Positions 20,490-21,432 of a stretch of 64,000 nt of DNA are shown one piece after another. The position numbers and the translations under genes were made by a program. Origin of the DNA: Pseudomonadota bacterium (GTDB taxonomy: Bacteria > Pseudomonadota > Gammaproteobacteria > Burkholderiales > Rhodocyclaceae); assembly GCA_018262195.1 (NCBI GenBank), contig JAGTRS010000020.1:1-64000 (forward strand), given 5' to 3'. The notes beneath the pieces are model-generated. The model was not told where the DNA came from. It worked only from the letters and a program-made list of their open reading frames with translations, and did not search any database. The number at the start of each line of letters is the position of its first letter. Position 1 is the stretch's first letter.

Positions 20490-20672
20490 ATGAACGTCAA
20501 AATCCACTATCGCATTACCCAGGACCGCGCCGGAATACCGCAGGACTACAACGGCGCCCGTCACTTCGTCGTTCGCGAAGGCGAGGCCATTGAAGACACG
20601 GCACGAAGCCAGCTGGCGACCGATTACCAGGTTCCGAACAGCGCCGTCGAAATCTGCCGGATCGAAAGCTGA
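20490..20672 (+). CDS. Small protein of unknown function (60 residues)
   Basis: The frame MNVKIHYRITQDRAGIPQDYN... ends IEICRIES-like (AVEICRIES) and is too short to appear alone in the ORF track, where it is buried in 20406-20672. A GAAGGGGAA purine-rich ribosome-binding site lies just before the ATG, and a promoter-like TTGCAC/TATACT pair lies upstream, so translation is likely. There is no signal peptide or membrane segment; it looks like a small cytoplasmic alpha/beta protein. The family was not recognised. It is followed by about 230 bases of structured, apparently non-coding sequence before a strong terminator. Confidence 0.65.
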   Translation: MNVKIHYRITQDRAGIPQDYNGARHFVVREGEAIEDTARSQLATDYQVPNSAVEICRIES

Positions 20673-20699
20673 GCGCTTGCCGAATGGCAACCCGCTGAA

Positions 20700-20925
20700 G
20701 CACTCAACGATAAAACCGGGTCACCCCGGAGAAAATTCACATGGAATTGCTGCGACGCAGCATAAAATCTATCCAGCCACTGGCAACATTCTGTTACAGA
20801 AGGCTACGAAAGGACGACAGACGAGAGAGGCACCGGGACATACACTGCAAGTGTGCATTGAACCCCTCCTCTCGAAATTCCCCCTTTCGAGAATTTTCTA
20901 CCCCGCCACTGGCGGGGTTTTTTTT
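20700..20925 (+). ncRNA. Candidate structured RNA, possibly a 3'-UTR-derived sRNA
   Basis: The gap between the 60-residue orphan and the cytochrome gene has no convincing coding frame but several perfect short inverted repeats: TGCTGCGACGCAGCA (20748-20762), TTCTGTTACAGAA (20789-20801), ACACTGCAAGTGT (20842-20854) and an 8-bp stem TCTCGAAA/TTTCGAGA with a TTCCCCC loop (20870-20892). These are followed directly by a canonical terminator. CGAGAGAGG at 20822-20830 can pair with CCTCCTCTCG at 20865-20874, competing with the C-loop hairpin. C-rich loops in front of a terminator are typical of sRNAs that pair with ribosome-binding sites. No clear separate promoter was seen, so processing from the orphan gene transcript is possible. 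Confidence 0.45.
20901..20925 (+). terminator. Strong rho-independent terminator
   Basis: CCCCGCC-ACT-GGCGGGG forms a 7-bp GC stem with a 3-base loop, followed by eight T residues. It ends the transcript of the orphan gene or candidate RNA and insulates the cytochrome gene. Confidence 0.93.
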
Positions 20926-20952
20926 GGCTGAGTTCCGGCAGACCGTTATAAT
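20924..20952 (+). promoter_or_regulatory. Sigma-70 promoter of the cytochrome c gene
   Basis: TTGGCT (20924-20929) and a perfect TATAAT (20947-20952) are separated by 17 bases, 33 bases before the ATG at 20986. The -35 element begins inside the T-tract of the preceding terminator, so the two elements are packed end to end. Confidence 0.7.
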
Positions 20953-20985
20953 CGCTGTTTTATTATTCGCACTGGGGTCTTCGGC

Positions 20986-21432
20986 ATGGCTGAACAAAAC
21001 TCTTCCAAGAGCACTATGTGGAAAACGATCGGCGTCGCAGCAGTTCTGATCGCCATTATCTATCCGCTCACCAACAGAACTTACAACTCGGCCGCCGACG
21101 CAGCCAAGGGCACCGACGAATCCGATGTCCGTATCCAGCCGGTCGCCAAGTTCGAACTGGCCAAGGCAGCCCCGGCCGCCGCCAGCGGCCCGAAGGATGG
21201 CGCAACGATTTACAACACCGTCTGTGGCGCCTGCCACAACACCGGTGCCGCCGGCGCCCCGAAGGTTGACGACAAGGCAGCCTGGGCACCGCGCGTTGCC
21301 ACCGGCAAGGAAGCACTCTACAAGAGCGCACTCGGTGGCAAAAACGCCATGCCGGCCAAGGGTGGTGCAGCTGACCTGTCCGATGCTGAAATCAAGGCAA
21401 CCGTCGACTACATCCTGACCAAGGTCAAGTAA
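20986..21432 (+). CDS. Membrane-anchored cytochrome c5-family protein
   Basis: A 148-residue protein with an N-terminal uncleaved-looking anchor (MWKTIGVAAVLIAIIYPL), an Ala/Pro-rich spacer and one class I cytochrome c domain. Haem attachment is CGACH near residue 80, and the likely axial methionine is in KNAMPAKGG near residue 122. The c5 type carries electrons in the periplasm, between respiratory complexes or to terminal reductases; the partner cannot be told here. It stands alone between a strong upstream terminator/promoter pair and a downstream terminator. Confidence 0.92.
   Translation: MAEQNSSKSTMWKTIGVAAVLIAIIYPLTNRTYNSAADAAKGTDESDVRIQPVAKFELAKAAPAAASGPKDGATIYNTVCGACHNTGAAGAPKVDDKAAWAPRVATGKEALYKSALGGKNAMPAKGGAADLSDAEIKATVDYILTKVK

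Follow-up and report, generated by a model that had tools for sequence, protein, structure and literature searches.

A conserved small RNA gene in front of a cytochrome c gene in Azonexus/Dechloromonas and its probable control by an RstA-type regulator

Introduction

CU-rich double-hairpin sRNAs are widespread in Betaproteobacteria, and what induces them is largely unknown; the accounts consulted for this work name either a common upstream motif without a regulator or a suspected repressor. Here we ask whether the intergenic gap 20673-20985 of the window (the whole 64,000-nt stretch of DNA that was analysed), which lies in front of a cytochrome c gene, contains such an RNA gene, where this gene begins and ends, and what might switch it on. 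An earlier note on the same DNA had read positions 20700-20925 as a candidate sRNA with a C-rich hairpin loop, which might switch between two structures. Comparative genomics now points to a candidate for the regulator, defines a precise promoter element and reveals a sibling RNA downstream of the operon that encodes this regulator. The sRNA family concerned is beyond those recognised by Rfam 15.

Results

The gap spans 313 bases. Upstream of the sRNA lies a 60-aa small protein (20490-20672), which was recognised in 21 of 50 loci with 65-98% identity outside the window itself and has no Pfam or NCBIfam match. An inverted-repeat search of 20673-20985 returned six perfect, non-palindromic repeats (Table 1). 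The length of the gap, the at least four perfect inverted repeats, the 8-bp C-loop stem and the terminator described in the earlier note are all confirmed, and stem and terminator were also picked up by a terminator scan. Its statement that the gap has no convincing coding frame is borne out on both strands, as the minus-strand ORF discussed below is broken in many relatives. The 73-nt segment 20853-20925 folds into exactly two hairpins, the C-loop hairpin and the terminator, at -24.1 kcal/mol (z = -5.1); none of 200 shuffled sequences was equally stable.

A search with 20680-20935 gave matches in 61 of 101 genomes. They comprise the own genome, nearly all of the 60 others that belong to the genus (Azonexus/Dechloromonas) and, elsewhere, a single short match to the terminator alone. 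An orthologue or paralogue of the window sRNA is found in about 58 of these 60 genomes, the orthologues sharing its 5' tail, C-loop hairpin and terminator. The alignment of 50 loci shows four blocks. Upstream of about position 20785 the sequence is unconserved (mean pairwise identity 31%), conservation is strong in the block ending in ACAGAC (its last 24 nt reach 86%), the spacer behind it drops to 36% while its length is exactly 18 nt in every locus, the TANANT block rises again to 85%, and TGAACCCCTCCTCTCGAA...TTTCGAGAA together with the terminator is near-invariant (92% over the first 24 nt). The span 20700-20925 was hence drawn too wide, conservation being limited to 20785-20925, and the likely gene is 20853-20925.

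Of the stems whose conservation the earlier note had set as the test of its reading, those of the C-loop hairpin and the terminator are kept in the relatives, unlike the switch pairing (see Discussion). The C-loop stem is paired in all 49 distinct orthologue sequences, six of which carry a compensatory change of an A-U to a U-A pair, and the terminator is present and conserved. Since most stem positions are invariant, covariation support is modest, and it is the conservation of the sequence itself that carries most weight. The window-type covariance model (R1) gives 105.5 bits for the window sRNA in its own genome. The suggested reading as an sRNA gene whose RNA has a C-rich loop and ends in an intrinsic terminator is strongly supported, and we consider it very probable that the gap holds a real, conserved sRNA gene.

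Table 1. Features of the sRNA locus, its neighbourhood and the sibling locus (window positions unless a contig is named)
Feature	Position	Strand	Remarks
Conserved activator element AACATTCTGTTACAGAAGGCTACGAAAGGACGACAGAC	20785..20822	+	Four ACA/ACG half-sites ~10-11 bp apart; genus-conserved
Promoter spacer	20823..20840	+	18 nt in 50/50 loci, sequence unconserved; with base 20822 contains CGAGAGAGG
Predicted -10 element TACACT	20841..20846	+	TANANT in relatives
Predicted sRNA, ~73 nt	20853..20925	+	5' end inferred from -10 element; fold z = -5.1
Single-stranded 5' tail GTGCATTGAACCCCTCC	20853..20869	+	CU-rich part TGAACCCCTCC near-invariant; predicted pairing site 1
Hairpin 1, 8-bp stem TCTCGAAA/TTTCGAGA	20870..20892	+	Loop TTCCCCC 20878-20884, predicted pairing site 2
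Intrinsic terminator ACCCCGCCACTGGCGGGGT then T	20900..20925	+	8-bp GC stem, 8 T at 20918-20925
Separate promoter of cytochrome gene, TTGGCT-17-TATAAT	20924..20952	+	TATAAT kept in most relatives
Cytochrome c gene (class I c-type, 148 aa)	20986..21432	+	Syntenic neighbour in 48/50 loci; outside sRNA unit
Sibling hairpin-terminator RNA	L373:466-547 (G000:C74:59265-59346)	-	
Inverted repeat, C-loop stem	20870-20877/20885-20892		8 bp, loop TTCCCCC
Inverted repeat, terminator	20900-20908/20910-20918		Then 8 T
Inverted repeat	20748-20754/20756-20762		
Inverted repeat	20875-20880/20891-20896		
Inverted repeat	20789-20794/20796-20801		
Inverted repeat	20825-20830/20868-20873		Part of CGAGAGAGG pairing

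Two conserved blocks held at a constant distance by a spacer of variable sequence are characteristic of a promoter, and the sRNA thus most likely starts about 7 bases after TACACT, near 20853. The full element reads GTTAC-N8/9-ACG-N8-ACAGAC-N18-TANANT. Its part up to ACAGAC has 63 matches in 41 genomes of the genus versus 3 for the reversed control. All 30 pattern loci examined are either window-type sRNAs (19) or linked to RstB (11), and in 28 of them TANANT follows exactly 18 nt downstream. Among 200 genomes of the family, only 9 contain the pattern. These counts suggest that the element is nearly confined to two loci in each genome, the window sRNA and a promoter behind rstAB.

The first part of the activator element resembles the RstA box TACATNTNGTTACA, a consensus with tandem TACA (PMC4117788): 10 of the 12 specified positions match in the window and 11 in some relatives. 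Tandem TACA half-sites carrying no more than one mismatch stand upstream of 49 of the 50 window-type loci and, at a fixed place about 59 nt upstream of the conserved 5' end, of 10 of 17 bdhR-type loci of the Rfam family RF02278. Among the controls, they occur in 1.6% of random stretches and, once the upstream regions are shuffled, in 6%. All these loci are related to each other, so that the proportions are not independent counts.

The window-type covariance model reports one second clear copy in the same genome (contig C74, 43.2 bits). This sibling RNA has the same hairpin and terminator and forms the 3' end of a short predicted transcript, which follows immediately on RstA/RstB-like two-component genes, and the promoter between rstB and a short ORF has the same architecture as that of the window sRNA. 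Both proteins are closest to RstA and RstB, yet stay below the NCBIfam equivalog cut-offs: the response regulator gives 296 bits for RstA (next family OmpR, 213; cut-off 330) and the histidine kinase 332 bits for RstB (next CpxA, 166; cut-off 478). The DNA-binding domain of the regulator is closest to solved RstA structures, and of the base-contacting residues of Klebsiella RstA, Arg199 and Arg207 are conserved here and Val203 is Ala. The arrangement of rstAB and sibling recurs in about 20 relatives, other genera included. At the sibling locus (L373), the region between the stop of the histidine kinase gene (979) and the sibling RNA holds a small conserved ORF, which encodes about 60 aa including a hydrophobic segment; it ends ...AGGIIAIARYLLKGRSKR, and another short ORF precedes it.

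At the gathering threshold, Rfam (15) returns no match for the window sRNA. Among Rfam families of resembling architecture, anti-hemB (RF02837, Burkholderia RNA 7) scores best, its 28.5 bits lying below the cut-off of 49.5; its members likewise have a C-rich-loop hairpin followed by a terminator, but align poorly with the window RNA outside the two stems. The architecture of RF02278 (Betaproteobacteria toxic sRNA or double-hairpin RNA; B. cenocepacia ncS03/ncS05/ncS27/ncS62, bdhR1) is found in full in the window RNA, i.e. two hairpins of which the second is the terminator, a CU-rich 5' tail and a CU-rich first loop. The tail is UGUCUCCUCC in RF02278 versus GAACCCCUCC in the window RNA, and the loop is CU-rich with CUCC versus UUCCCCC. 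RF02278 is further alike in having multiple copies per genome and, among published members, a common upstream motif. The score of the window RNA for this family, 23.7 bits, is below the gathering threshold of 50.

Two true RF02278 sRNAs are encoded in the same genome (L217, G000:C48:38016-38079, and L218, G000:C75:18430-18488; 64 and 55 bits), the one on C48 being S17S-like and the other bdhR-like. The window-type covariance model reports neither of them. Given this and the score below the RF02278 threshold, the window RNA forms a separate branch: it probably works like RF02278 RNAs but, by Rfam's test, is no member of the family.

The window RNA is also similar to S17S of Bordetella pertussis, a close relative of the RF02278 RNAs. 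Both are about 67-73 nt long, end in a terminator and have conserved CU-rich sites, one in the 5' tail and one in the first loop; S17S represses translation at ribosome sites, and its 5' tail acts directly on a target (PMC11722255). In contrast, S17S is released by RNase E from a precursor of 190 nt (PMC11722255), whereas transcription of the window RNA appears to begin at a promoter of its own. A 27-nt invariant 5' sequence of S17S has been reported across Betaproteobacteria (PMC11722255), and the S17S-like RF02278 copy on C48 has another tail (TGTCTCCTCCACCCTCCTCC...) than the window RNA. NmsRA and NmsRB of Neisseria (NgncR_162/163) are, by their description, comparable sibling sRNAs with an anti-Shine-Dalgarno CU-rich tail and loop; unlike the window RNA, they have three stem-loops, tandem genes and RelA-linked control (PMC5362039).

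Discussion

With these data in mind, we propose that the locus is a self-standing sRNA gene (20785-20925) activated by RstA and that its RNA and the sibling form a pair blocking Shine-Dalgarno sequences, a model that we hold with moderate confidence. An activator, most likely the organism's own RstA-type response regulator, would bind the tandem element 20785-20822, and transcription would start near 20853 and end at the terminator (20925). The resulting 73-nt RNA would present two CU-rich sites, the 5' tail and the loop, both of which may pair with the Shine-Dalgarno sequences of several mRNAs and so block their translation, probably with the help of Hfq; hfq is present in the genome (103 bits). 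The sibling would be made from the 3' end of the short transcript behind rstAB through the same promoter element. Since one element would drive both, a single two-component system would have two related anti-Shine-Dalgarno RNAs at its disposal.

The suggestion that the C-rich loop can pair with Shine-Dalgarno sequences extends to the near-invariant CCCCTCCTC tail, as loop and tail are both complementary to such sequences, and an action of the RNA on these sites is likely. The close analogues S17S (PMC11722255), the NmsRs (PMC5362039) and ncS27 (PMC5688073) have been shown or reported to act likewise. In the double-hairpin RNAs of B. cenocepacia, tail and loop are both CU-rich and are predicted to mask ribosome sites, and cells that overexpress ncS27 grow more slowly (PMC5688073). 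Sequence complementary to the tail occurs near start codons 92 times in ten genomes, versus 17 for the reversed control, an excess expected from Shine-Dalgarno sequences alone. Matches of AGGAGGGG near an ATG include genes that by eye are CheA-like, HppA-like and TonB-receptor-like, and a simple complementarity scan for targets gave none conserved beyond two genomes.

Three other accounts of the transcribed segment were weighed against a self-standing sRNA gene. The minimum-energy fold of the longer segment 20820-20925 replaces the C-loop hairpin by a pairing of an upstream GAGAGG with CCTCTC, and the alternative pairing noticed earlier is in this sense physically possible in a longer transcript. 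As a regulatory switch, in which pairing of CGAGAGAGG with CCTCCTCTCG would undo the C-loop hairpin, it is very improbable. Indeed, CGAGAGAGG (20822-20830) belongs to the 18-nt promoter spacer, where identity is 36% versus 85-92% on both sides, the pairing fails to be conserved in relatives, and since the segment is located upstream of the conserved -10 element, it is probably untranscribed. The C-loop hairpin moreover folds in 50 of 50 relatives in the mature form and persists in 38 of 50 in the extended form. The same pairing could be invoked for a 5' leader or attenuator of the cytochrome gene, with a conditional terminator whose read-through is set by either the C-rich hairpin or the upstream pairing, and this gene indeed comes next in 48 of the 50 loci at a near-constant distance. 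We nevertheless reject this account as the main reading and regard it as improbable: in most loci a separate TATAAT box for the cytochrome gene lies just past the sRNA terminator, the upstream pairing is unconserved, and related hairpin-terminator units occur in other contexts, namely behind rstAB without a cytochrome gene and at the B1 loci (L051, L053, L055, L057, L059), where no cytochrome gene was recognised. On the minus strand, finally, the reverse complement of the conserved tail forms a perfect ribosome site with an ATG (20870-20841; AGGAGGGGTTCAATG), and a frame running from the ATG behind AGGAGGGGTTCA, from 20858 downwards, is open in many relatives (MHNCSV...VCRxFVAFCN). A small protein encoded there is scarcely credible and was rejected, as the frame stops after three codons in several relatives, loses its start codon in others, is shifted in the L041 group, and is lost in paralogues that keep the hairpin. 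With the frame broken in this way, ribosome site and ATG are probably a by-product of the anti-Shine-Dalgarno sequence.

For the self-standing sRNA gene, the choice of activator is less clear-cut. A promoter shared almost exclusively with the RNA behind rstAB makes the RstA/RstB-type system the likely switch, and the window promoter carries tandem TACA-like half-sites, as does the RstA box; we judge RstA-type control to be somewhat probable. However, sites of OmpR-family regulators look alike, the binding of RstA at the window is a prediction, and a search of rstA's own promoter gave no obvious element, so that the sRNA may be real and yet answer to another OmpR-family regulator recognising tandem TTACA half-sites. 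We consider this unlikely, though a serious contender, as most genomes have the element at just one further locus, immediately behind rstAB, and its half-sites are similar to the RstA box. In our literature search, we found no paper linking RstA to CU-rich double-hairpin sRNAs.

More tentatively, the RstA/RstB-type system of Azonexus/Dechloromonas might possess a very small regulon of its own, made up mainly of anti-Shine-Dalgarno sRNAs, including the window RNA, its sibling and the bdhR-type RF02278 copy. If so, this system would act mainly by post-transcriptional repression.

The five B1 copies have a similar promoter and a degenerate terminator and are possibly a duplicated sRNA; two of them (L053 and L059) are located near apparent cobalamin-synthesis genes.
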